From positions 1-25,929 of IMG/VR virus record IMGVR_UViG_3300031774_000133: a stretch of DNA of 25,929 bases. The stretch is one strand, 5' to 3'. Made by a program: the position numbers and the translations under genes. Source of the stretch: a virus. The notes under the pieces are model-generated. The model saw nothing but the letters and a program-made list of their open reading frames with translations. It did not search any database and was not told the origin of the DNA. How positions within the stretch are numbered: position 1 is the stretch's first letter; the number at the start of each line of letters is the position of its first letter. Positions 3,986-15,560 of the stretch are shown here, piece by piece.

Positions 3986-5818
3986 ATGCTCCGATACGTA
4001 CTTGACTGTGAAACAAATGGTCTGCTCCATGAATTGGACAGAGTTCATAGTCTGGTGCTGAGAGATATTGATACTGGAGATGTTATTAGTTGTGCAGATC
4101 AAGAAGGATATGAACCTATTGAAAATGGGTTACATCTAATCAGTCAAGCAGATCTACTTGTCTTCCATAATGGAATCAATTTTGATCTAAGAGCATTAAA
4201 AGCTGTATATCCAACTCTGACTAGGAAAAAAAAATGCATCCTCTGTGACACGCTAATTATGAGTCGTGTCCTCTGGCCAGAGATGGAACCAGTTGATGAA
4301 CAAAAATTTTCTCATATAGATCCAAAATATAAAGGTAAACATTCTCTAGGAGCATGGGGAGCAAGATTAAATGTTAATAAATCGGATTTCCCAGTAGAAG
4401 ATGGGGCCGATAAATGGGATAAATGGACACCCGAAATGCAAAAGTACTGTGAAAATGACACCTTAGTATCGCTGGAACTGTATAACTACTTTCAAACACA
4501 GGAATTAGAACCTACTTGCTATGAATTGGAACATAGTTTTGCAATTATCATGGCATTACAGGAAAATTTTGGTTTTCCTTTTAATGAAAAGGCAGCATTC
4601 GCTTTAGTTAATACACTGAAAACAAGAAGGGCAGAAATCGATGATCAGCTTCAAGAAACTTTTCCACCAATTACAGAGGAAAGAATTTCAGAGAAGACAG
4701 GAAAAAAACTTAAGAGCAAAGTTACAGTATTTAACCCTGCTTCGAGAAAACAGACTGCCGAGCGACTACTTGGGAGATACCCAGAAATCGTATTCGGTAC
4801 CACGGAAAAAGGTAATACAAAACTTGATGATGACGTATTGGAAATCCTCGGTAAAAAATATTCGGAAGCTGCTCTTCTAGCTGAATACCAACTATTAAAT
4901 AAAAGACTTGGACAAATATCTGAAGGTAAAGAAGCGTGGGTAAAACATAGTCAAAAATTTAAAGATGGAAGGATACATGGCTCAGTTATCACCAACGCCT
5001 GTGTGTCGGGCCGATGTTCCCACCGGGGTCCCAATGTGGCTCAAATTCCGCGAGTTGGTCAACCTTACGGTGCAGAGTGCCGTGCTCTGTTCTATGCGCC
5101 CTTTGGATGGGTTCAAGTTGGTGCTGATGCTAGTGGATTAGAACTACGTGCATTAGGTGCTCAGCTCGCTTACTTCGATGGTGGAGAGTATGCCAAATTA
5201 GTTAGTACCGATGACTTCGATATACATACACATAATGCAAAATTATTTGGAATATTTGACGGAAAAGGTGATATAGATAAAAAGACCAGAGAGCTTGCAA
5301 AGACTATGATTTATGCAGTACTTTATGGGGCTGGAGCGAAAAAGTTAGGTACTATTTTAGATTTCTCTCTAAGTGAACATGAACAGCAGCAATTAGGCAG
5401 AGATACTATTGATACTTTCTATAAAAATTTACCTGCAATTAAAAAATTAAAAGATAAAGTTGACGAAAGAGTAGTTCAACGTGGTTACTTAACTGGAATA
5501 GATGGTAGACATTTACAGATAAGATCTCGCCATAGTGCATTGAATCAGTTACTACAATCAACTGGTGCAATTGCAGTAAAAAAAGCTACCTGCATTCTCT
5601 ATAGAGACTTACATCTAGCAGGTCTCAAGTGGGGCTGTCATTTTGCCTTTGTTGCTCACATCCACGATGAAATTCAAGCACTAGTTAAACCTCAACACGT
5701 TTCCGTGTATAAAGACCTAGCTATTAAATCTTTCCAAAAGGCTGGAGAATTTTTTGATTTAAAATGTCCGTTAACAGGTGAGGCCAAAGAAGGTAAAAAT
5801 TGGATGGAAACTCACTAA
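3986..5818 (+). CDS. T7-like family A DNA polymerase with 3'-5' exonuclease
   Basis: This 610-residue enzyme replicates the phage genome. The proofreading domain (1-170) has Asp7 and Glu9 (LDCETNGL), Asp67 (HNGINFDLRAL) and Tyr154/Asp158 (YCEND). The polymerase domain has motif A DASGLELR (381-388), motif B RELAKTMIYAVLYGAG (435-450) with Lys439 and Tyr443, and motif C HDE (560-562). Tyr443 matches the T7 Tyr526 position, and LNQLLQSTGAIAVKK (519-533) and NWMETH at the end also match the T7 gp5 type. The protein is about 95 residues shorter than T7 gp5. Between LQETFPP and VFNPASR there are only about 20 residues, where T7 carries its roughly 75-residue thioredoxin-binding insertion. It should therefore not use thioredoxin as clamp in the T7 manner. 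The next gene starts directly after the stop codon. Confidence 0.97.
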   Translation: MLRYVLDCETNGLLHELDRVHSLVLRDIDTGDVISCADQEGYEPIENGLHLISQADLLVFHNGINFDLRALKAVYPTLTRKKKCILCDTLIMSRVLWPEMEPVDEQKFSHIDPKYKGKHSLGAWGARLNVNKSDFPVEDGADKWDKWTPEMQKYCENDTLVSLELYNYFQTQELEPTCYELEHSFAIIMALQENFGFPFNEKAAFALVNTLKTRRAEIDDQLQETFPPITEERISEKTGKKLKSKVTVFNPASRKQTAERLLGRYPEIVFGTTEKGNTKLDDDVLEILGKKYSEAALLAEYQLLNKRLGQISEGKEAWVKHSQKFKDGRIHGSVITNACVSGRCSHRGPNVAQIPRVGQPYGAECRALFYAPFGWVQVGADASGLELRALGAQLAYFDGGEYAKLVSTDDFDIHTHNAKLFGIFDGKGDIDKKTRELAKTMIYAVLYGAGAKKLGTILDFSLSEHEQQQLGRDTIDTFYKNLPAIKKLKDKVDERVVQRGYLTGIDGRHLQIRSRHSALNQLLQSTGAIAVKKATCILYRDLHLAGLKWGCHFAFVAHIHDEIQALVKPQHVSVYKDLAIKSFQKAGEFFDLKCPLTGEAKEGKNWMETH

Positions 5819-5998
5819 ATGAAAAACAGAATGCATCAAATCAAATCTTCTTGGTACTACATTTTCTGGGGTTTAATGTCAGCGTCTGTAGTCGCCGGTC
5901 AAATTTATGTCGGGACTGGTTATAGAGAAATGTCAGAATCATTTAAGCAGAGTGTGATCCAAATTGATCCTCTTTCAACCTCTCCACGCATACGTTGA
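5819..5998 (+). CDS. Small single-span membrane protein
   Basis: The ATG directly follows the polymerase stop (TAAATG), and the frame gives 59 residues. It begins MKNRMHQIKSSWYY, continues with a hydrophobic segment (about residues 12-32, IFWGLMSASVVAGQIYV) and ends in a soluble tail. A single inner-membrane span with a positively charged N-terminus inside is predicted. I have an impression of similar small proteins next to polymerase genes in marine cyanophages but cannot name a family. The immediate coupling to the polymerase gene argues that it is real. Confidence 0.75.
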   Translation: MKNRMHQIKSSWYYIFWGLMSASVVAGQIYVGTGYREMSESFKQSVIQIDPLSTSPRIR

Positions 5999-6012
5999 GG
6001 CATGTTTCTTCA

Positions 6013-6036
6013 TTCTCATCTAAGTAGCAATGAGAA
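6013..6036 (+). other. Hairpin in the gap downstream of the polymerase operon
   Basis: TTCTCAT and ATGAGAA form a perfect 7-bp stem with a 10-base loop, 14 bases after the stop of the small membrane protein. No U-tract follows, so it may slow or stabilise the transcript end rather than terminate it. The rest of the gap 5999-6140 shows only short stems and a TATAAA just before the next ATG. Confidence 0.35.
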
Positions 6037-6140
6037 ACGCATTCAAAATAATTCTCGACTGAGTCATGTGTGTTCATTTCAAAACTTTAACTCATCTTGT
6101 ACTAAAAACTCCTTGAGTAAAAATCCTCAAAAATATAAAT

Positions 6141-6455
6141 ATGGATAAACACGATATACCTTTCTTAGGTGATTTTTATACTAAAACTGAAGTAGATGCC
6201 ATGGTTGCAGCTGCTGTTGAAGAAGCTAGAGCAATAGACGAAGCTTCAATGGCAGAGCACAATTTCAAGGCAACAATTATTAGTATGATTCTTGGATTTA
6301 TCTGCTTAGCATTATTCCTAGATGGCACATTAAGACTGCTTGGAATTATCCCGCCTTTCCTAGATATTGATATAAGTATTATCGATAAAATTGCAGATAA
6401 AGTAGAAACAGAAGTTCTACCTTTAATCCACCAAGCTAAACAAAACCTCTTTTAG
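6141..6455 (+). CDS. Small membrane protein of unknown function
   Basis: This 104-residue protein has a soluble N-terminal helix (YTKTEVDAMVAAAVEEARAI), a membrane span at about residues 45-70 (IISMILGFICLALFLDG), and an amphipathic C-terminal helix (IDKIADKVETEVLPLIHQAK). No ribosome binding site is visible before the ATG. The final 20 bases overlap the end of the convergent minus-strand gene. Topology is compatible with a spanin or holin accessory, but nothing specific supports lysis, and no family is recognised. Confidence 0.65.
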   Translation: MDKHDIPFLGDFYTKTEVDAMVAAAVEEARAIDEASMAEHNFKATIISMILGFICLALFLDGTLRLLGIIPPFLDIDISIIDKIADKVETEVLPLIHQAKQNLF

Positions 6456-7080
6456 GTCTGACATTTGCTGGATATGTTCCTCCCATATGTGGCATATATC
6501 CCCCCTGTCCTTGATTTAAATCAGGATAATATTTTACTGGAGTACTAGGACCTTGATTCAAAGCTGTTTTAACTCCTCCTAGAAGACCTCTTTCTTTCAA
6601 TCTTCTAATATTTTCTAAATATTTTTCAATTTGATACTGTTTATCCGCATAAGGAGTTGAAAAACCTGATCTTCCTGCTGCAAGGTCTATCGGAGGAGAA
6701 AAAGGATCTAAACCTTTAGGGTCCGTATAATCATCATATTCTCTTTGATACTGTTTTTGTAAATTGTCATAATCCTCTTTCCTTACATCACCAGTACTAG
6801 CAATATCAAATAAAGAACTGAAAATATCATCTAAGCCAGCTTTCTTAATACCTCCATAAGGTCGTGAAAAATTGTTTCTATCCGAACCTTGCACACCTCT
6901 AATAACACCTCTTACTTCACCTGGAAAATCCTTTTTTATAGGAAATAATGCTGGCCCTCCTGCAATATCTCCCTCATAAGGTAGTGGTACTACCGTCGCT
7001 CCTCCTCGATATATATCTATAGGTTCCATAACTGATCCTCCTCTGTAAGTACCTATTGGACCGAATCCACCAAATGTCAT
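6436..7080 (-). CDS. Virion-like low-complexity protein inside the replication module
   Basis: This 214-residue protein is rich in Gly, Pro, Tyr and Asp. It begins MTFGGFGPIGTYRGGSVMEP and has a second YRGG motif (IDIYRGGATVVP), a tyrosine- and aspartate-rich helix (YDNLQKQYQREYDDYTDPKG) and a Gly/Pro/Tyr-rich end (DLNQGQGGYMPHMGGTYPAN). The composition resembles the small virion-like proteins at 23122-23570 more than the replication proteins around it. It is encoded alone on the minus strand, converges with the membrane protein gene (20-base overlap) and diverges from the SSB operon. It could be a virion protein expressed late, but no family is recognised. Confidence 0.65.
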   Translation of the reverse strand: MTFGGFGPIGTYRGGSVMEPIDIYRGGATVVPLPYEGDIAGGPALFPIKKDFPGEVRGVIRGVQGSDRNNFSRPYGGIKKAGLDDIFSSLFDIASTGDVRKEDYDNLQKQYQREYDDYTDPKGLDPFSPPIDLAAGRSGFSTPYADKQYQIEKYLENIRRLKERGLLGGVKTALNQGPSTPVKYYPDLNQGQGGYMPHMGGTYPANVRPKRGFV

Positions 7081-7106
7081 ATCTGCTATCTCTAAGTAAA
7101 GATCTC

Positions 7107-7134
7107 TTGCTATTTTAAGTTACCCTAGTACACT
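7107..7134 (+). promoter_or_regulatory. Putative sigma70-type promoter of the SSB operon
   Basis: TTGCTA (7107-7112), a 16-base spacer and TACACT (7129-7134) resemble a bacterial sigma70 promoter with two mismatches in each box. The start of transcription would lie about 15 bases before ATG 7156. It sits in the short gap between divergent genes, where a promoter is needed. Confidence 0.35.
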
Positions 7135-7155
7135 AATCCTGCTGTTATAACTGCC

Positions 7156-7317
7156 ATGCCACCTCACGCTGAAAAACCTGATGAAATTTCCACCACAGAA
7201 CTCATCGATCTAGAACGAGGTTATAACGACCTCAGAAATCTTGCTGACGAACAGTTAGATAAGATTCACACGATACTTAAATCTCGTCTATCGAAGTCTC
7301 TTAAAACTGAATTATGA
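7156..7317 (+). CDS. Small charged protein coupled to SSB
   Basis: This 53-residue protein (MPPHAEKPDEISTTELIDLE...) is mostly one charged helix, likely a coiled coil (ERGYNDLRNLADEQLDKIHT). Its stop overlaps the SSB start (ATGA), a typical sign of translational coupling. The tight coupling suggests a partner of SSB or a replication accessory. No family is recognised. Confidence 0.7.
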   Translation: MPPHAEKPDEISTTELIDLERGYNDLRNLADEQLDKIHTILKSRLSKSLKTEL

Positions 7318-8072
7318 ATTTAATTACAGCGGCAGCAGTTTACACAGGAGACGACACCACTGCGAGTGGTCTTCGGACTATGCGCCTTGCAATAGAAGGT
7401 ACTGGTAAAAAACCGATTCCTATTCCTCTATTTGTATTACCTAGTTTTGCAGCTGGTGATACCTGTGCAGCTGGTGTCTTTGAACCTAATACAACTCTGC
7501 TAGTTAATGGTCGCCTATACCCCCATGAAGATGGGAAAATGTATCTGGTACCTACACAACCAATACAAGCGGTACCTACAAGTACAGCAATTAATCAAGT
7601 CTACTTAGCAGGAGGCGTTGGTTTCATTGGTGAACAATATAGAGAAGATGCATTTAACTTCGGTTTAATGTGTCAAGCTCCACCACAAAAGACTCTTGGC
7701 CACACTTGGCAAGACAGCCTTGGTTTCAGGATCGAGAGTTGGAGGGATGATGCAGAGAGGATGAAAAAATTCCTTTTCGTAGGTCGTCAAGTGGCTATGG
7801 GCGGTACTCTTAAATTTGAATGCTGGACTGGCAAAGATAATGTCACAAGGCACAATTATAAAATTAGAGTTAGAGCCTCTCAATACTCCTTCTTTGGTAA
7901 AAATAAAAAGACCGAAGATCTAGAGGCAAAAGTTAATGAGGCTTTAAAAGACTATGAGGCAACTAAAAAGGAACCTCAACACTTTGCTGATTCTCCCCAT
8001 CAACAAGCAATTGCTAAACCCAATCCTGCTCCTAAGAAAACAAAAGAGGTTGATGACGGGATTCCCTTTTGA
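7314..8072 (+). CDS. ssb: Single-stranded DNA-binding protein
   Basis: This 252-residue protein ends in KEVDDGIPF, the acidic D-D-x-I-P-F tail by which bacterial SSBs recruit partner proteins. The core from about residue 93 (NQVYLAGGVGFIGEQYREDA) to 196 fits one OB fold, with a strand pair KKFLFVGRQVAMGGTLKFEC and final strand NYKIRVRASQYSFFG. Residues 15-90 (LLVNGRLYPHEDGKMYLVPT) also look OB-like, so the protein may carry two OB folds in tandem rather than one. A proline-rich linker (KPNPAPKKTKE) precedes the tail. The protein is larger than E. coli SSB (178 residues). It would coat single-stranded DNA at the phage fork and lies between the polymerase and primase-helicase genes. Confidence 0.85.
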   Translation: MNLITAAAVYTGDDTTASGLRTMRLAIEGTGKKPIPIPLFVLPSFAAGDTCAAGVFEPNTTLLVNGRLYPHEDGKMYLVPTQPIQAVPTSTAINQVYLAGGVGFIGEQYREDAFNFGLMCQAPPQKTLGHTWQDSLGFRIESWRDDAERMKKFLFVGRQVAMGGTLKFECWTGKDNVTRHNYKIRVRASQYSFFGKNKKTEDLEAKVNEALKDYEATKKEPQHFADSPHQQAIAKPNPAPKKTKEVDDGIPF

Positions 8073-8128
8073 TAACCTTGTAACGCTGGTAGATCCAGCC
8101 CAACCTAACTGAACACTCTGAACTACTT

Positions 8129-9040
8129 ATGTCTGTATTAGACCGTTTTAAGGACACTGAAAAATACCCACGTCAAATGCGTGAACTTGGTATGCTTCTA
8201 ATCCTTAACAGAAGAAAAGATCCTGGGATATTCCTGAAGGACACACATGCTGATCGTTGTGGATGGTTTGGAAAACCGTCACAATTCCCTGATGCTGAAC
8301 ACACCGAAGAAGAATTTGGTGGTGGCGCAATAGAGGAAGGTATTTTATTCCGCACCCCTCGAATAATTATTTTACGTGGTGGTTATAAAGATGATCCTAC
8401 CTTCGTTGAAAACAGCGAAGAAAAAGGTGCTATTGAAGGTCTCTACGGAGACATGAATCACCTCTGGGATACATGGAAAGAAAGAAACCCAGATAAGCCA
8501 GTTCCATATAGAAGAAGACGCCTAGTTCTCTGCTATCTAGTAGATGCAAAAGGTGCTCCTGTTCATAAGAAGCCTTTAATCCTCTCTATCCATGGTGGAG
8601 CTGCAAGACTTCTATGCCAAAAGTATTCACAGTTCCTAGAACAACTGGAAACTGCCTACGCTAATCACACTGGGGACAAAGCAGCACAAGGCTTTGGTGA
8701 AAAAATGTGCTCCTCTGTCATATGGACACCTACCTTTGGTAGTGAAAAATATGGTGACAAGAGAAAATCTGATATTGCTGTCCCAGAGTCATGGGAAATT
8801 CCAGATGAGGATAATATCCTAAACTTCTGGCCTAAAAAAGCAGCCGATATTGATCATCTTGAAGAAGTATGGGAAAGTTGCCCACCAGAGGTATACGCCA
8901 ACAAATACTTCAAGCAGTGTGAGAAGGAGATCGGTTTCCATGCTCTCAAACCAGGGGTAGATATTACTAACCCTGTACTTCCTGCAACTACTCTTGGAGA
9001 AAGAGATGAGGCAGGTGCGCTTGCTGGTGGACTGACCTAA
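8129..9040 (+). CDS. DUF5895-like protein
   Basis: This 303-residue protein matches what I remember of DUF5895, a family of cyanobacteria and their phages. It has an early PGIFLKDTHADRCGWF segment, then GAIEEGILFRTPRIIIL, then PYRRRRLVLCYLVDAKGAPV with HKKPLILSIHGGAARL. The function of the family is not established to my knowledge. Its place directly after SSB within the replication module hints at a role in DNA metabolism or takeover; this is inference. A 5-bp hairpin (GCTGG/CCAGC, 8085-8099) lies in the gap after SSB. The stop shares four bases with the stop of a small minus-strand frame, and a strong terminator follows 24 bases later. Confidence 0.75.
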   Translation: MSVLDRFKDTEKYPRQMRELGMLLILNRRKDPGIFLKDTHADRCGWFGKPSQFPDAEHTEEEFGGGAIEEGILFRTPRIIILRGGYKDDPTFVENSEEKGAIEGLYGDMNHLWDTWKERNPDKPVPYRRRRLVLCYLVDAKGAPVHKKPLILSIHGGAARLLCQKYSQFLEQLETAYANHTGDKAAQGFGEKMCSSVIWTPTFGSEKYGDKRKSDIAVPESWEIPDEDNILNFWPKKAADIDHLEEVWESCPPEVYANKYFKQCEKEIGFHALKPGVDITNPVLPATTLGERDEAGALAGGLT

Positions 9041-9189
9041 GTCTTTTTTAAATCTAAATAATTAGCGGAGAGCTTTAACTGAGTCTTCTCCGCTTTTTTT
9101 ATGATCTCTTTTGCTTGTTTTCTAGAAGTACATCTTTCTGCTTTAGTTGCAAGCTTTACCAATTTTCTATGCTGTTTAGCTGGATTCAA
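9037..9189 (-). CDS. Small basic protein, convergent with the DUF5895 gene
   Basis: The frame starts at TTG 9189 and encodes 50 residues, MNPAKQHRKLVKLATKAERC then TSRKQAKEIIKKAEKTQLK. It is lysine-rich and predicted fully helical. It begins three bases beyond the stop of the minus-strand gene at 9193-9441 and could be coupled to it. It ends in CTAA shared with the stop of the plus-strand DUF5895 gene. The plus-strand terminator at 9064-9100 lies inside it. There is no Shine-Dalgarno and the start codon is TTG, so I am only moderately confident. The clean helix and exact junctions are the support. Confidence 0.45.
   Translation of the reverse strand: MNPAKQHRKLVKLATKAERCTSRKQAKEIIKKAEKTQLKLSANYLDLKKT
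9064..9100 (+). terminator. Rho-independent terminator after the DUF5895 gene
   Basis: AGCGGAGA and TCTCCGCT form a perfect 8-bp, GC-rich stem with a 15-base loop, followed by a run of Ts. It ends the SSB-DUF5895 transcription unit. It also lies within the convergent minus-strand frame 9037-9189; there the stem is not followed by a U-tract. Confidence 0.88.
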
Positions 9190-9192
9190 TAG

Positions 9193-9441
9193 TTAATTAC
9201 TGTGAGATTTCGTGACCATACCAGACGTCTCACCCTTTGCTAATTGCTTACACAATCCACGTATTATTGCTTGACGTTGCATAGTAATCATTAATAAGTT
9301 TATTGCAGCCATTCTTAACTTTTCTGGATCTCTAATTGATAGTAATTCACGTGAAATAGATTCCATTGTGAATTCATCTTCCAGTGTGGGAGCTGTATCA
9401 GAAGCATCAAAAGCTATTTCTGTAATCCGAAATTCTTTCAT
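9193..9441 (-). CDS. Hypothetical protein, minus-strand island
   Basis: I choose ATG 9441 (82 residues, MKEFRITEIAFDASDTAPTL) because AGGTG lies five bases upstream. A GTG two codons earlier is possible. The protein has an acidic N-terminal half and a C-terminal helical part (PEKLRMAAINLLMITMQRQA, IIRGLCKQLAKGE) that recalls small cyanophage proteins of unknown role. With the following 50-residue frame it forms a two-gene minus-strand island between two plus-strand operons. No family is recognised. Confidence 0.65.
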   Translation of the reverse strand: MKEFRITEIAFDASDTAPTLEDEFTMESISRELLSIRDPEKLRMAAINLLMITMQRQAIIRGLCKQLAKGETSGMVTKSHSN

Positions 9442-9479
9442 AAGCACCTATCTTATATAAACCAGTCTACCTAGCCTGA

Positions 9480-9507
9480 TTGACAGAAACGGTATAAACA
9501 CTACAAT
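9480..9507 (+). promoter_or_regulatory. Strong sigma70-like promoter
   Basis: A perfect TTGACA (9480-9485), a 16-base spacer and TACAAT (9502-9507) make the best bacterial-type promoter in the window. Transcription would start near 9514, about 17 bases before ATG 9531. It would drive the gene cluster that leads to the nuclease and primase-helicase, using the host RNA polymerase. Confidence 0.65.
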
Positions 9508-9530
9508 TTACGCAGGAAGAATAAGACTTA

Positions 9531-9668
9531 ATGGCAAAATCTAGATGGAATGATGGTCAACGAACAATAGAAGCATATCCTAAAAAGACTTCAATAGGTA
9601 ATGGGAGACGTAAAAATGGCTCTTACAAATGGAAAAGAAAGAAAAAATATAGAGGTCAAGGAAGATAA
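9531..9668 (+). CDS. Small very basic protein
   Basis: This 45-residue protein (MAKSRWNDGQRTIEAYPKKT...) is about one third Lys and Arg and ends SYKWKRKKKYRGQGR. It lies directly behind a strong promoter, with AGGAAG about ten bases before the ATG. Its stop overlaps the next start (TAATG). The charge suggests nucleic-acid binding. No family is recognised. Confidence 0.7.
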   Translation: MAKSRWNDGQRTIEAYPKKTSIGNGRRKNGSYKWKRKKKYRGQGR

Positions 9669-10270
9669 TGGCCGATAAAGCAACCTATTTACAGTTGTTG
9701 GAACATGGTCAACAAATAGATTTTCTTCTTAATTCTCCAGAAGTTGAAGAGGATGAAAAAAAAGAATTAATCTATATATGGGACTCTCTTAAAACCAGAG
9801 AAGAATCAAAATTCGATGCAATAATCGGAGTTATTAAAGAGTGTGATAAACAGGTTGATAATTTAGAACAGGAGATTTCAGAGCTAAAAACAAATCAAGA
9901 ACACTGGAAAAAGAAGAGAGAAAACATTATTAACATAATTAAATTGGCATATGAGAAAAGGTTAATAAGCTCAAAACCAACTGGTAATAAGTATCAAGCC
10001 ACAATTAAAGCAGTACGCTCCAAATTAATCTCTAACTTTGATTTATGGAATGATAAAGAAAAACGAACATTTGGACTGAAGAAAAGCACAATAATTAAAC
10101 GAATTTTTAATAATAAAATTATTCAAGAGGAGATTGAAGATTTACCAGATAAAGAAAGGATGAGAGAAATTATGGAAGATTTTCCAGAAAATGGCCCCTC
10201 CCCAGCTAAATTAGTAAAAAGAGTCTCATTAGCTTATAGATTGAGAAAGAGAATTAAGAAAGGCATATAG
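9668..10270 (+). CDS. Gp157-like coiled-coil protein
   Basis: This 200-residue protein fits the Siphovirus Gp157 family. It has an N-terminal LLEHGQQIDFLLNS segment and the typical EESKFDAIIGVIKECDKQVD stretch. A coiled coil follows (LEQEISELKTNQEHWKKKRE), then a switch to a basic beta/helix part (NKYQATIKAVRSKLI). The second half (about 120-200) is helical and basic. Gp157-like proteins commonly lie in phage replication modules near SSB or recombination genes; their biochemical role is not settled. The context here, upstream of a RecB-like nuclease, is the usual one. The start overlaps the previous stop by one base. Confidence 0.8.
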   Translation: MADKATYLQLLEHGQQIDFLLNSPEVEEDEKKELIYIWDSLKTREESKFDAIIGVIKECDKQVDNLEQEISELKTNQEHWKKKRENIINIIKLAYEKRLISSKPTGNKYQATIKAVRSKLISNFDLWNDKEKRTFGLKKSTIIKRIFNNKIIQEEIEDLPDKERMREIMEDFPENGPSPAKLVKRVSLAYRLRKRIKKGI

Positions 10271-10307
10271 AGCCAAGCTAAGATTAACTGCCATCGAAAA
10301 TCTAAAA

Positions 10308-10430
10308 ATGACTGAAGAAAATACGACTACAAAAATAATTTGCCCTGATTGCAACAGAGTTCATAAAAAAACTGAACCATGTGTTTGCAAAAAAGTTGAC
10401 TACATTGATCCAAATCCATTTGATAGATAA
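10308..10430 (+). CDS. Mini zinc-ribbon protein
   Basis: This 40-residue protein carries two cysteine pairs, CPDC at residues 12-15 and CVC at 25-27, spaced like a zinc ribbon (IICPDCNRVHKKTEPCVCKK). It ends VDYIDPNPFDR, where the NPF-acidic end resembles a short partner-binding tail. It would bind zinc and may contact nucleic acid or a protein. No named family is recognised; the cysteine arrangement is what supports it. Confidence 0.6.
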   Translation: MTEENTTTKIICPDCNRVHKKTEPCVCKKVDYIDPNPFDR

Positions 10431-10483
10431 GTCTTGATCTTGGTTTAGAGGGGATAATCTATTCTTGTTGTCGCCCTTTAATA

Positions 10484-10723
10484 GTGAGAACTCAAAAGAA
10501 ACTGAAATACCGTGGTGGTCCTTCTGAAATACTGGAGTCCCTAATGTTTGCTGGCTATGAAATTAAAGCCCTAAAACATGGTAATACTGGTCATGTACTC
10601 TACAAATTCCCTAGTAAAATTCACGATTGGGAGCCTTGCTGGACAATGGATCTACAGACAGCAAAAAATGGAGTTGAAAAATATAATCAACAATTAGGAA
10701 AAAAAGGAAAAGAAACGGAGTGA
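10484..10723 (+). CDS. Small GHV-motif protein 1
   Basis: This 79-residue protein starts at GTG 10484 (MRTQKKLKYRGGPSEILESL). It has a compact segment NTGHVLYKFPSKIHDW followed by EPCWTMDLQTAKNGVEKYNQ. The pattern G-H/T-V-x-aromatic/basic, then Cys, then eight or nine residues to an Ala in a terminal helix, recurs in the tiny proteins at 11372-11554 and 24572-24736. It may be a small beta-hairpin plus helix fold. The start lacks a Shine-Dalgarno. Function is unknown. Confidence 0.6.
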   Translation: MRTQKKLKYRGGPSEILESLMFAGYEIKALKHGNTGHVLYKFPSKIHDWEPCWTMDLQTAKNGVEKYNQQLGKKGKETE

Positions 10724-10767
10724 GATAACCGTAGAATCTAACCTGTACTAAATTTGGAAAGCAAATA

Positions 10768-11022
10768 ATGGTAAGGCCATTAATGACAAACCTTATGGAT
10801 GACCTTGCAAAAGACATTCATAACTACCTACTCGAAATCTCTACAGAGTTCGAGGGGAAACATCTTGTACTTATACCAATTACTGAAGTCGTTAAAAAAT
10901 TTGGACGCAATCATAGAACTATTCAACGCCGTATACATGCATTGAAAGATGAGGGGCTATTGGACCCTGTAATAAAAAGGAATACTATAGCTTTATATCA
11001 CATTCACAATTTTGATGACTAA
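10768..11022 (+). CDS. Winged-helix/HTH DNA-binding protein
   Basis: This 84-residue protein contains a clear helix-turn-helix, ITEVVKKFGRNHRTIQRRIH, followed by ALKDEGLLDPVIKRNTIALY, which fits the last helix and beta wing of a winged-helix domain. The N-terminal helix (MDDLAKDIHNYLLEISTEFE) could mediate dimers. It is likely a small phage transcription regulator or a DNA-binding replication accessory. GGAAAG seven bases before ATG 10768 supports the start; ATG 10783 with AAGG is an alternative. The next gene begins two bases after its stop. Confidence 0.75.
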   Translation: MVRPLMTNLMDDLAKDIHNYLLEISTEFEGKHLVLIPITEVVKKFGRNHRTIQRRIHALKDEGLLDPVIKRNTIALYHIHNFDD

Positions 11023-11024
11023 TT

Positions 11025-11342
11025 ATGCCCGAAAGCTCCACTCCCGATCCAAATCTTGATCATCTAGATTTTCTGATTTCATCTTTCACAGATAATGGAA
11101 AATCACTTAGAGGTTTTGTTAATAACCCACAGGAACTCTCTATTTGTATTTTGACCGCAGGTCTACTTGCTAACTCAAAGTTAATGATTGGTCCTGAAGA
11201 TGCAATTAAATCTGCTTTTGATATCCATGCACGAATTCAAGCACATGTAGGTAAGTTCCAAAACATGCAGTTTGCGCAAAGAATCGACAATTGTTTCAAT
11301 ACAAATCCTGAAGAACGTCCTCCAGAAATAGAACACGATTAG
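11025..11342 (+). CDS. Hypothetical protein coupled to the HTH gene
   Basis: This 105-residue protein starts two bases after the HTH gene. It has an acidic N-terminus (MPESSTPDPNLDHLDFLISS), a hydrophobic centre (ELSICILTAGLLANSK) and a helical part (AIKSAFDIHARIQAHVGKFQ). It is alpha-helical and not clearly membrane-bound. No family is recognised. Coupling suggests it may act with the HTH protein. Confidence 0.65.
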   Translation: MPESSTPDPNLDHLDFLISSFTDNGKSLRGFVNNPQELSICILTAGLLANSKLMIGPEDAIKSAFDIHARIQAHVGKFQNMQFAQRIDNCFNTNPEERPPEIEHD

Positions 11343-11371
11343 AGATAGAATAGAAAAACACCAACATCCTG

Positions 11372-11554
11372 ATGATGAAAAAACCAGAGTTAGTTCTAAC
11401 AACTCCTCAAGGAGGTACTGTCCATAAATACCCATTAACTGGAGGAAAAAGTACCTTTGAACGTTACTTAAGTTGCTATACAGGGAGCTGTAAATTCTTT
11501 AACGATATGGATGAGGCTAAAAAACACTTAGTTACCGTAGAACCTACGAGTTGA
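11372..11554 (+). CDS. Small GHV-motif protein 2
   Basis: This 60-residue protein (MMKKPELVLTTPQGGTVHKY...) has the segment GGTVHKYPLTGG, then SCKFFNDMDEAKKHL. The spacing from Cys to the helix Ala is close to that in the proteins at 10484-10723 and 24572-24736. A beta hairpin followed by an amphipathic helix is predicted. No family is recognised. It lies between the HTH pair and the nuclease gene. Confidence 0.6.
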   Translation: MMKKPELVLTTPQGGTVHKYPLTGGKSTFERYLSCYTGSCKFFNDMDEAKKHLVTVEPTS

Positions 11555-11601
11555 GCAAGATTAAGTAAGGTTATTCTCCTTAGAGCTGATATAAAGACTT
11601 C

Positions 11602-12426
11602 TTGGATTATCGCTCTGAAGGTGACACACGTCTCACTATTGATGGATCTCGACATTATAAAACTCCATATGGCGCATTACCTTCAGTAACTACTATTCTT
11701 TCAGCTACTTCAGGTAGTAAAGCTGCTTTAGAACGTTGGGCAAAAAAGAATCCAGGAGGAAGAGAAGCCGCCGCTGCTAGAGGAACAAAAGTACACTCTC
11801 TAATGGAAGAATTTCTATTAGGAAAAGATACAGATCCTCAAATTAATGATCCTGAAATTGCAGATTTTTGGAATGGTTTACCTCAAAATTTAGAAAAATT
11901 AGAAAAAATTGTATGGGCAGAAAATCCTGCTAATCCTGATGATTTCTCATGGGTAGTTGGAGGGGATGGTGTCTCTCGCGTATGGCATCCCGGAAGAAAT
12001 AAAGAAAAAAACTGGGGATGGGCAGGTACTCCAGATATCGTTGCTGAATATAAAGGTAAAGTTGTACTGGGAGACCTAAAAACAAGTAATGGTCCCTACT
12101 TTGCTCGTTGGCCTGGCTCAGATACCCCTAAAAATTTGTATGGGATGAAGAGAGCAGGTTTCATGAAATATTCAAAATGTCAAATGCAGATGGCAGCCTA
12201 TGCCCTAGCTCTGGAACACACAGTAAATATAAAACCAGAATTGATTATGACCTTTGTGGCAACACGGGAAACCGTTCAAGTCTTTGTTATACAAAGTTCA
12301 ACAATCGAAAAATATAAAGAGAAATGGCTTGATGCTGTCGAGAAATATTACACAGAAATACTCCCTGCTCAAGAAGCTGAAAAATTAGAAATGGATGCCG
12401 TAAACGAGGATAAAAAGACAGATTAA
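11602..12426 (+). CDS. PD-(D/E)XK nuclease, RecB/Cas4-like
   Basis: This 274-residue protein shows the RecB/Cas4-type nuclease core. His65 lies in RGTKVHSLMEEFL, Asp145 in GTPDIVAEYKG, and the Asp158-x-Lys160 pair in VVLGDLKTS. The Gln-helix is KCQMQMAAYALALE with Gln196 and Tyr200. It lacks the cysteine cluster of iron-sulphur Cas4 enzymes. Such phage exonucleases process ends for recombination or recycle host DNA. The start is TTG 11602 because no other start occurs before the conserved N-terminal part (PSVTTILSAT, the usual lead of this family). No ribosome binding site is seen. It lies just upstream of the primase-helicase in the same operon. Function class is firm; the exact substrate is inferred. 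Confidence 0.88.
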   Translation: MDYRSEGDTRLTIDGSRHYKTPYGALPSVTTILSATSGSKAALERWAKKNPGGREAAAARGTKVHSLMEEFLLGKDTDPQINDPEIADFWNGLPQNLEKLEKIVWAENPANPDDFSWVVGGDGVSRVWHPGRNKEKNWGWAGTPDIVAEYKGKVVLGDLKTSNGPYFARWPGSDTPKNLYGMKRAGFMKYSKCQMQMAAYALALEHTVNIKPELIMTFVATRETVQVFVIQSSTIEKYKEKWLDAVEKYYTEILPAQEAEKLEMDAVNEDKKTD

Positions 12427-12540
12427 TTCCTTATAAATTAGAGATACAGAAAAAGTTTAGGATAAAAAACTGGCTAAATAGGTAAAAACCGCTAACCTCA
12501 ATCTGGTATCAACATCTTATTACGCGAACGAGACAAAACT

Positions 12541-15117
12541 GTGCCTACTGCTCCACAAGAAAAACAACCTAACTACCAAACCACGGCTGGCGAGATTAAC
12601 CTCGACCTGATACCTAAAGATTGGGCTCTTACGCCATTACGTGAGAAAAGGGCTTATCTTGCTGGCTGGACGTCCCAACCATATACGATTGATCAAATTA
12701 AAGATGAATTAGAAGAAGGAAAAGCAACTGGCATAGGTTTAATTACAGGTCAATGGTCCAACGCAGGTGGTCTTTTATGGGTTGATATTGATGGACCAGA
12801 AGGAATTCCAGAACTCGAAAAGCTAGCTGGAGCACCACTTTCAGCGATTTTTCCTCCTACTTTAACTATCTCATCGGGAAAAGAAGGAAGACAACGAATG
12901 CTTTATAGTATTCCCGCTTCAAAATTATCCTTATTACCAGATAAAGCAACAATAAAAATAGGTATACCTGCCTTTGAAATCCTGTTTAGGTCTAGGCAAG
13001 GTGCCATTATGGGCAGTCACCCAGAGACTGAAGGATATTTCACAACTTCTCATGGTGGTTTTGAGTATGCGAAAAATCCTCCTGAATTACCTGAGTGGTT
13101 ATATAAAGCAATTGCAAAGGCACATCCCACTACAAAATTTAGAAAAACACCTAAACAAGGGGTAGTAACTCAACAGATAAATCTCAGTTATGAAGAAGGC
13201 TCTGAATACCAACAGGAAGAACTTCTAAACGAAGCAAAGCTTTATTTAGATCATCTAAGCGAAGACCGTTGTGTCGATTATGAAGAATGGATAACTGTAG
13301 GAGCAGCCTTACATCAAATAGATGAAAGTCTTTTAAAGGAATGGATTGGCTGGTCAGCACAGGCTGATAACTTCCAAGAAGGTGTCTGCGAACAGAAATG
13401 GGGTACTTTTGAACGCCAAGAAGGTGGTCCGGCTCCTGAAAATGGTGCAGGTATCCATACTCTTAGGGCTAAGGCAAAGGAAGATGGATATGTAGAACTA
13501 GGTGGTTTTGTAGTTGAAGCCGCCGATGTATTAGCTGAAAAAGCTAGAAAACTATTTAAAAATGATAGTCCTGAGTTTGCCGAGAAAACTATGAATAGTG
13601 CTATAAAAGCAATTATGGGAACCCCTTCTAAAAAAGAAGAGGAAGAAATAAAAGAGAAAGTAAAAGGAAGAAGCAGACCTAAAACTCCTCCTGCTTCAGA
13701 ACTTGCAGAGTTCGTTACTCAAATGGTAATCGAATGTGGATGGAGATACGATCCTAAATTTGATACCTTTATGTTCTATCAAAGCAGTAAAGGTACATGG
13801 AGAAGAGAAGAATATAAACATGAATATAGACACTTCGTACAAGACCTATTTTTAAGGGAAAATATTCCTACGCCAGGTGGCTTTACATCTCATCTGATCG
13901 GTGACGTAGTTAACCTAACTCAGGCGTATATCACTCACACCTATTGGGATGATGATCCTGACAGACTTGCTTTCCATAATGGTGTCCTAGAAATGAGTAC
14001 AGGAGAATTCCTAGATCATGATCCCGAACACTTTCTAACATGGGGACTTGATTTTGATTATGACCCTCATGCAAATCCAGGACCAATAATTCAATGGCTA
14101 AAAAGAACTCAGTATGGAGATGAGGATAGAGTTCAAGTTCTTAGAGCATGGTTGAAAGCTTGCTTAGTAGGTCAGGGACACGAACTACAGAGATTCCTTG
14201 AAGTCATTGGGCCAGGAGGACGTGGTAAATCTACTTTCGCAAATCTATGTTGCTCTTTAGTTGGTAATGGGAATTATGCAAGTACTACCCTCAATCAGCT
14301 CGAACAAAGCCGTTTTGAGATCGCATCGATAAAAGGTAAGCGACTAACCCTTATCAACGACTCAGAGCGTTACGGAGGCTCTGCACAGATCTTTAAAGCA
14401 CTTACTGGAGGGGATAATCTTCGCTTTGAAGAAAAAAATAAAAATGTAGGTGAGCCATTCGTATATACCGGCATGGTCATGGTTTGCGCCAATGAACCAA
14501 TCCAAACAACTGATAACACCTCTGGCTTAACTAGACGCCGTTTAACCGTGGAGTTTAATCGCTCGTTATGGGATAAAAATTCTGAGGCAAAAGAGATGAT
14601 AAAAATGGAGAATGGAGTGGTAAAGGGCTTATGGAAGAATTATTTACCTGGGTTAGTTAACTGGGTTTTACAAATGAGTACTGAAGAAATGAGAGAATAT
14701 CTTCTTGATACTTACGAAAAAGTACCTTCATTGAAGAAGGTTAGGAATGAAATTCTATTGAATAGTAACAACCTAGTTGAATGGCTCCAGTCCGAAGTTG
14801 TTCATGATCCTGACGCCGTTTCATCTGTAGGTAAGAAAATCCCTGCAGCAAAAGATGCAAAAGAAAGATATTGTAATAGCAGCTTCCATCTCTATGCGAG
14901 CTACTGTTCCTTCTGTGAAGATACGGGGTCAAAACCTGTAGGCCAGAAACGATTTATATCTCTACTTCTTGATTGCTGTAAAAACCAGTTATCGCTCAAA
15001 AACATCTATCATTTCACCAAGAAAGGAAGACCATTTATTAAAGGTTTAGTGGTTCGGAGTTCCGATCAAAAGCACACTTCTTCCCCTACAATACTGCCAG
15101 AAAATAAATTGGCATAG
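12541..15117 (+). CDS. Primase-helicase: PrimPol, PriCT-2 and D5-type SF3 helicase
   Basis: This 858-residue protein begins at GTG 12541 and combines primer synthesis and unwinding. Residues 30-190 form a bifunctional primase-polymerase domain with the metal-binding VDID (81-84), then PTLTISSGKEGRQRM and GAIMGSHPETEGYF. Residues 235-320 form a PriCT-2 region (VDYEEWITVGAALHQI, SAQADNFQEGVCEQKWGTFE). A D5_N-like part (about 385-540) leads to the SF3 helicase: Walker A GPGGRGKST (557-565), Walker B LTLINDSE (602-609), sensor NEPIQ (651-655) and the arginine finger in SGLTRRRLTVEF (661-672). It resembles phage P4/D5 primase-helicases, not the T7 gp4 or DnaB type. The 114-base gap upstream holds no gene. 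Replication would start from an origin that this enzyme recognises or is loaded on. Confidence 0.95.
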   Translation: MPTAPQEKQPNYQTTAGEINLDLIPKDWALTPLREKRAYLAGWTSQPYTIDQIKDELEEGKATGIGLITGQWSNAGGLLWVDIDGPEGIPELEKLAGAPLSAIFPPTLTISSGKEGRQRMLYSIPASKLSLLPDKATIKIGIPAFEILFRSRQGAIMGSHPETEGYFTTSHGGFEYAKNPPELPEWLYKAIAKAHPTTKFRKTPKQGVVTQQINLSYEEGSEYQQEELLNEAKLYLDHLSEDRCVDYEEWITVGAALHQIDESLLKEWIGWSAQADNFQEGVCEQKWGTFERQEGGPAPENGAGIHTLRAKAKEDGYVELGGFVVEAADVLAEKARKLFKNDSPEFAEKTMNSAIKAIMGTPSKKEEEEIKEKVKGRSRPKTPPASELAEFVTQMVIECGWRYDPKFDTFMFYQSSKGTWRREEYKHEYRHFVQDLFLRENIPTPGGFTSHLIGDVVNLTQAYITHTYWDDDPDRLAFHNGVLEMSTGEFLDHDPEHFLTWGLDFDYDPHANPGPIIQWLKRTQYGDEDRVQVLRAWLKACLVGQGHELQRFLEVIGPGGRGKSTFANLCCSLVGNGNYASTTLNQLEQSRFEIASIKGKRLTLINDSERYGGSAQIFKALTGGDNLRFEEKNKNVGEPFVYTGMVMVCANEPIQTTDNTSGLTRRRLTVEFNRSLWDKNSEAKEMIKMENGVVKGLWKNYLPGLVNWVLQMSTEEMREYLLDTYEKVPSLKKVRNEILLNSNNLVEWLQSEVVHDPDAVSSVGKKIPAAKDAKERYCNSSFHLYASYCSFCEDTGSKPVGQKRFISLLLDCCKNQLSLKNIYHFTKKGRPFIKGLVVRSSDQKHTSSPTILPENKLA

Positions 15118-15197: not shown

Positions 15198-15560
15198 ATG
15201 ATTAAAACTTTTATTGCTATTGCAGCAACAACTGCATCTGTAGCTACTCCAGCTGCATTCGCAGGCACATATGTAAATGTTGAAGCTAACTCTGGTTTCA
15301 CAGGTACTGACTATGAAGGATCTGTAACTGATATCCATATTGGTTATGAAGGCGGCAACGAAACTTATGGTTTCTATGTACAAGGTGGTCCAGCAGTTAT
15401 CGCTCCTGAAGGTGGCGACGGTGAAACACGTCTATCTGGAAAGCTTGGCGGTGACATTGCTGCATCAGAAAGACTTGGAATTTATGGTGAAATCTCACTA
15501 TTAACACAAGAAGATGACAACCTTTATGGAACAAAAATCGGAGCTAAGTACAAGTTTTGA
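15198..15560 (+). CDS. Secreted outer-membrane beta-barrel-like protein
   Basis: This 120-residue protein has a clear signal peptide (MIKTFIAIAATTASVATPAA, cleavage after AFA at residue 22). Short amphipathic beta strands separated by Gly/Asp turns follow: TYVNVEANSGFTG, VTDIHIGYEGG, TYGFYVQGGPAV, RLSGKLGGDIA, RLGIYGEISLL, GTKIGAKYKF. The final Phe is typical of outer membrane proteins. About 98 mature residues are too few for a full eight-strand barrel, so it may form a six-strand sheet or an oligomer. I recall similar small porin-like proteins in T4-like cyanophages and marine cyanobacteria. It may alter the host surface or hinder superinfection; this role is inference. The gene has its own leader and promoter-like sequence and may be expressed separately. 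Confidence 0.75.
   Translation: MIKTFIAIAATTASVATPAAFAGTYVNVEANSGFTGTDYEGSVTDIHIGYEGGNETYGFYVQGGPAVIAPEGGDGETRLSGKLGGDIAASERLGIYGEISLLTQEDDNLYGTKIGAKYKF

Follow-up and report, generated by a model that had tools for sequence, protein, structure and literature searches.

In phage T7, the origin is primed by a transcript of the RNA polymerase (RNAP), and priming of the lagging strand falls to gp4. The polymerase of T7 and of the related autographiviruses HTVC019P, CRP-125, LUZ100, and P-SSP7 belongs to family A (PolA) and has Tyr at position 762, and it is accompanied by gp4 (DnaB_C plus Toprim domains), a single-subunit RNAP, and gp2.5. The association of Tyr762 PolA of marine viruses with ring-shaped SF4 helicases and DnaG/gp4 was described by Nasko et al. 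(PMC6302109).

A different set of replication genes, PolA and a D5/SF3 helicase with no DnaB, is carried by the siphophages Vash, Crewmate, Mysterium, Salete, and Scapp and by Casjensviridae, e.g., pEp_SNUABM_08; both genes are annotated in these phages, and the domain calls confirm SF3. In the Erwinia phage pEp_SNUABM_08, a primase-SF3 gene, a "Cas4-like" nuclease, an SSB-type gene, and PolA occur together, and the actinophage members of this set have a Toprim or DUF3854 primase half. SF3 helicases are also encoded by cyanobacterial plasmids, as in the P4-family primases of Gloeothece (pP742401) and Rippkaea (pP880101). Finally, the freshwater isolate S-EIV1 was reportedly described by Chenard et al. 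in the ISME Journal (9:2046) in 2015. This Synechococcus phage (KJ410740), whose complete genome is 79 kb long, corresponds to gOTU G238 (PMC5332604).

Here we analyze a stretch of 25,929 b (the window), which is a whole IMG/VR record and a fragment, its relatives being larger. It contains the replication module of a marine cyanophage of the S-EIV1 lineage. The lineage was already known and an annotated isolate genome has been published; what is new is the marine member, and T7-type PolA without gp4 as a lineage-wide exception to the Tyr762-SF4 rule. No discussion of this exception was found in the accessible literature, which comprised neither the S-EIV1 isolate paper nor Kazlauskas 2016.

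The Window and Its Lineage

Searches with PolA and the primase retrieved S-EIV1 and dozens of IMG/VR contigs of up to 87 kb. The window PolA falls into one clade with the S-EIV1 PolA (support 100/100), and the primase-helicase has a full-length PrimPol-PriCT_2-D5_N-SF3 homolog in S-EIV1 (34–36% identity; 34% over 97%). The gene order is the same in both, comprising T7-type PolA, SSB, a DUF5895-like protein, the phrog_298 exonuclease, and the primase-helicase, and both lack gp4 and RNAP. The order PolA-SSB-DUF5895-orf-exonuclease-PrimPol/SF3 (Table 1) is repeated in more than 20 contigs, with the main genes also found in S-EIV1, and the pair of PolA and SF3 together with the order of the module is kept in S-EIV1 and in contigs of 60–87 kb. 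In contrast to the window, S-EIV1 is a freshwater phage, its PolA and primase genes are separated by about 18 kb rather than 7 kb, and psbA is not annotated in it. The S-EIV1 lineage spans both marine and freshwater cyanophages.

The window is assigned to a cyanophage by its psbA gene. The closest DNA match of this psbA comes from the single-cell-derived marine virus AG-345-E15 (82.5%), and psbA is located upstream of PolA in several relatives too. Tail-fiber genes are the only virion genes carried by the window, and a search of the window for RNA families and tRNAs revealed none. The DUF5895 protein sits in the module throughout the lineage, and it is strongly diverged in L006, L117, and L118.

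Table 1. Positions of the module genes, their domains, and flanking genes in the window
Feature	Position	Strand	Evidence and remarks
psbA	639–1724	−	
Family A DNA polymerase, T7-type, 610 aa	3986–5818	+	DNA_pol_A (Pfam), 141.8 bits; phrog_17, 398 bits
Small conserved ORF	6141–6455	+	phrog_7360, function unknown; kept by many marine lineage members
SSB	7314–8072	+	phrog_44; PF00436 slightly below cut-off
DUF5895 protein	8129–9040	+	PF19247, 52 bits; function unknown; syntenic across the lineage, including S-EIV1
Conserved ORF, function unknown	9668–10270	+	Weak sub-threshold similarity to Sipho_Gp157; syntenic across the lineage
PD-(D/E)XK exonuclease	11602–12426	+	phrog_298, 117 bits; conserved in S-EIV1
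PrimPol-PriCT_2-D5_N-SF3 primase-helicase, 858 aa	12541–15117	+	Prim-Pol, PriCT_2, D5_N, and DUF5906 above Pfam cut-offs
Prim-Pol (AEP) domain	12604–13098	+	Within the primase-helicase; motifs I and III present
D5_N and SF3 ATPase half	13735–15117	+	Walker A GPGGRGKS at 14209–14232
Cyanophage outer-membrane-protein-like beta barrel gene	15198–15560	+	PF24653; directly 3' of the primase-helicase gene

Components of the Module

The polymerase had been called T7-type in the first-pass annotation, which was made from the sequence alone, and this is borne out by its DNA_pol_A domain, by Tyr at the 762-equivalent site, and by its position in the clade of the gp4-bearing phages CRP-125 and LUZ100. 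It is 46–48% identical to the PolA of these two phages and about 38–40% identical to that of S-EIV1, and the acidic residues of both the 3'-5' exonuclease and the polymerase are all intact. The thioredoxin-binding insertion is absent (22 residues versus 72 in T7); its loss was rejected as a mark of SF3 pairing, since the gp4-bearing HTVC019P has an equally short loop. A useful intermediate for rooting the PolA tree is the 47.9-kb contig L122, whose T7-type PolA branches close to the SF3 clade's base although the contig carries gp4 and RNAP.

The D5_N domain and the SF3 ATPase with its Walker A motif identify the second enzyme as a primase-helicase of the D5/P4 type. In its AEP domain, the acidic residues of motif I (VDID; W[VI]DID across the lineage) and motif III (FEIL) are present. 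The His of motif II (sxH) is absent, and almost every lineage member that was read has Arg or Lys in its place (SGKEGRQRMLY); the same substitution was reported for the DR0530-like AEP family (PMC5862659). Because of this replacement, primase activity is not assured. Comparison of the AlphaFold model of the PrimPol half, which is of moderate quality (pLDDT 78), with solved structures using Foldseek gave the NrS-1 primase-polymerase (PDB 6a9w) as the closest one, at low TM-scores; NrS-1 resembles this half only and differs from it in motif II.

The SF3 half is 37–40% identical to the Gloeothece and Rippkaea plasmid proteins and 42% identical to S-EIV1. In the SF3 tree, the lineage adjoins cyanobacterial plasmid and genome proteins, apart from the SF3s of PolA-bearing siphophages, which belong to other branches; since the branches leading to the other phage rows are very long, the tree is used here only to show that the lineage lies near the cyanobacterial plasmid sequences. 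By these sequence comparisons, the helicase half is nearest to the cyanobacterial plasmid P4-family primases and not to another phage lineage. The plasmid counterparts begin with DnaG_N/Toprim, whereas the phage proteins begin with AEP, so that different primase halves sit on a common helicase half. SF3 genes of four contigs fall inside the cyanophage lineage despite the cellular labels of these contigs, namely L213, L214, L215, and L235, labeled as Bacteroidetes, Gammaproteobacteria, Heimdallarchaeota, and Flavobacteriales; the Heimdallarchaeota-labeled gene lies in a 4.9-Mb "chromosome" (CP070695). These are probably mis-binned or mis-joined viral DNA.

The SSB, first noted as unusually long, is indeed present, and its length is explained by the AlphaFold model, where a pair of OB-like halves (about 1–94 and 94–194) is followed by a disordered tail that ends in DDGIPF. 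Its best solved matches are the Thermus and Deinococcus SSBs, and it is thus modeled as a double-OB protein of this bacterial type, in contrast to gp2.5 of the autographiviruses. The tail end D-x-[ILV]-P-F is found in nearly all aligned lineage members; in bacteria, the SSB tail of the DDxIPF type recruits host enzymes. The nuclease fared less well: the enzyme is present as proposed and is of the PD-(D/E)XK type, but its suggested Cas4 identity was rejected, the Cas_Cas4 profile giving 15.4 bits against a cut-off of 22.7 and the protein matching the phrog_298 exonuclease instead.

Distribution of the Pairing

PolA together with SF3 is ordinary among phages at large. In a sample of 15 SF3-bearing phages, PolA was matched in nine (in seven of them above the cut-off) and DnaB in none; KLEA5 was rejected as a PolA phage, as its polymerase is not PolA by Pfam. 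Thus the idea that the pair sets this virus apart from well-described phages falls in its broad form. It stands in the narrow one, limited to T7-type Tyr762 PolA, since the PolAs of the other SF3 phages are distant and have Phe, His, or Leu at 762.

T7-like polymerases were expected to work usually with gp4, and among the T7-type PolA loci, gp4 adjoins the polymerase gene in 75, a strong SF3 in 13, and both in none; the SF3 match of L022 (23 bits) is weak and was left out of the strong-SF3 count. In five more contigs (48–83 kb) with T7-type PolA, D5 is located elsewhere in the contig. The SF3-paired PolAs, both marine and freshwater, form a single clade (support 99 in one tree and 100/100 in another). 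Among the close kin of this polymerase, pairing with SF3 is confined to the S-EIV1 lineage, which is a clear monophyletic exception to the association of Tyr762 PolA with SF4 helicases. The pairing is therefore an old lineage-wide state and not a peculiarity of the window genome, and a lifestyle or replisome type read off polA by itself will be mistaken in the S-EIV1 lineage.

Origin of the Pairing

The proposal that the replisome was assembled from different phage lineages survives in part. The separate ancestries of the two genes, and with them the mosaic reading, are supported by their trees; the kin of the SF3 half, however, are cyanobacterial plasmid proteins, and the combination is lineage-wide rather than genome-specific. 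Among Caudoviricetes, the exchange of polymerases is a well-documented process (PMC11348598). In contrast to those swaps, here it is the helicase-primase that differs, whereas the type of polymerase is common with the autographiviruses.

Alternatively, nothing may be mosaic, and PolA with SF3 may be ancestral to the polymerase clade, the autographiviruses having gained gp4 later. In its favor, a PolA topology that keeps all gp4-paired polymerases together, beside the SF3 clade, withstands the AU test (p = 0.55), and the combination of PolA and SF3 is, as described above, common in other phages. However, the PolAs of those phages are the distant ones with other residues at 762, the grouping of the SF3 half with cyanobacterial plasmids indicates a cyanobacteria-specific source, and the best PolA trees place the SF3 clade among the gp4 rows, if with modest support (91–92). 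An ancestral PolA-SF3 pair thus seems rather unlikely. Under the replacement that we prefer, one PrimPol-helicase would have taken the place of gp4, and probably also of origin priming by RNAP, once in the lineage ancestor; its SF3 half would have been drawn from the cyanobacterial plasmid replicon pool and fused to AEP, not to a Toprim primase.

Inside the lineage, the two genes have not always traveled together. In the freshwater members (S-EIV1 and G030–G038), the PolA and PrimPol-SF3 trees strongly conflict, S-EIV1 grouping with G032 in PolA and with G034/G038 in the primase. The topology of each gene forced on the other was rejected (AU p = 1.7e-8 and 1.4e-59) in post hoc tests, with the groups taken from the tree of the other gene. 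Judging from these trees, PolA and PrimPol-SF3 reassort inside the lineage.

Helicase and Priming Functions

As the window is a 25.9-kb fragment, the absence of gp4 had to be judged from its relatives. The DnaB_C profile, which detected gp4 in the positive controls HTVC019P, CRP-125, and LUZ100, had no match in the window, in 26 relatives (including contigs of 73–87 kb), in the complete S-EIV1 genome, or in seven further D5-carrying lineage contigs. Neither S-EIV1 nor any of four large contigs was matched in phmmer searches that used the gp4 and RNAP proteins from P-SSP7 and HTVC019P as queries; as a control, the queries from each of these two phages recovered the proteins of the other. T7-type RNAP was not found in the relatives; the search with PF00940, done without a control, was repeated with phage positive controls. 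From these relatives, we infer that gp4 is absent from the window's own genome as well. The claim that the PrimPol-SF3 protein is the only recognized replicative helicase holds for the entire S-EIV1 lineage.

One could argue that the virus is replicated by a host helicase or by an undetected second one, and that the part of PrimPol-SF3 is limited to opening the origin or to recombination restart. Among the genes of S-EIV1 and the window, many have no assignment and could hide a helicase or a primase, and both the altered motif II of PrimPol and the bacterial-type tail of the SSB would fit such a scheme. On the other hand, neither DnaB_C nor SF2 Helicase_C occurs in any near-full-length lineage member, and PrimPol-SF3 is kept, with Walker A intact, wherever contigs cover the module, so we regard this reading as unlikely. 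The joining of two genomes in one contig has practically no likelihood. Although the window comes from just one metagenomic contig fragment, numerous independent contigs show its gene order, and the complete S-EIV1 genome has both genes, which rules out an assembly chimera.

It is likely, from the gene content and phylogeny, that PrimPol-SF3 supplies both helicase and primase for Tyr762 PolA, acting with the double-OB SSB and the exonuclease, and that this pairing arose once. PrimPol-SF3 would open the origin, make primers, and unwind DNA ahead of PolA, which would extend the primers; the SSB would coat single-stranded DNA and recruit via its tail, and the exonuclease would process DNA ends. 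Three T7 functions would then be replaced by one protein, namely origin priming by the RNAP transcript, the gp4 primase, and the gp4 helicase. The joint absence of gp4 and RNAP would be understandable, because a PrimPol-helicase could do both priming jobs.

Polymerase-Helicase Contact

SF3 enzymes generally translocate 3'-5', as established for E1, T-antigen, and pRN1 ORF904. By analogy, the helicase and the polymerase would move on one template strand, unlike gp4 and gp5, and the T7 contact geometry would not be simply kept. The gp4 proteins of T7, CRP-125, LUZ100, and HTVC019P have an acidic tail ending in Phe or Tyr, whereas the SF3 C-terminus (PTILPENKLA) is non-acidic and has no such tail. 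Since PolA and PrimPol-SF3 reassort, their contact is probably generic and not allele-specific.

A fuller scenario is possible, and we advance it tentatively: PolA may have been freed from gp4 and RNAP in one step, with a plasmid-type SF3-AEP protein taking over opening, priming, and unwinding on the same strand, the SSB acting as a hub, and the contact being generic. The lineage provides a natural experiment in which nearly the same polymerase works with two unrelated helicases, so that the essential share of the polymerase-helicase contact becomes directly testable. Most marine lineage SF3 proteins keep a C-terminal motif, SDQK....PTILPE (15061–15102 in the window), which is a possible docking peptide, or merely the last structural element.
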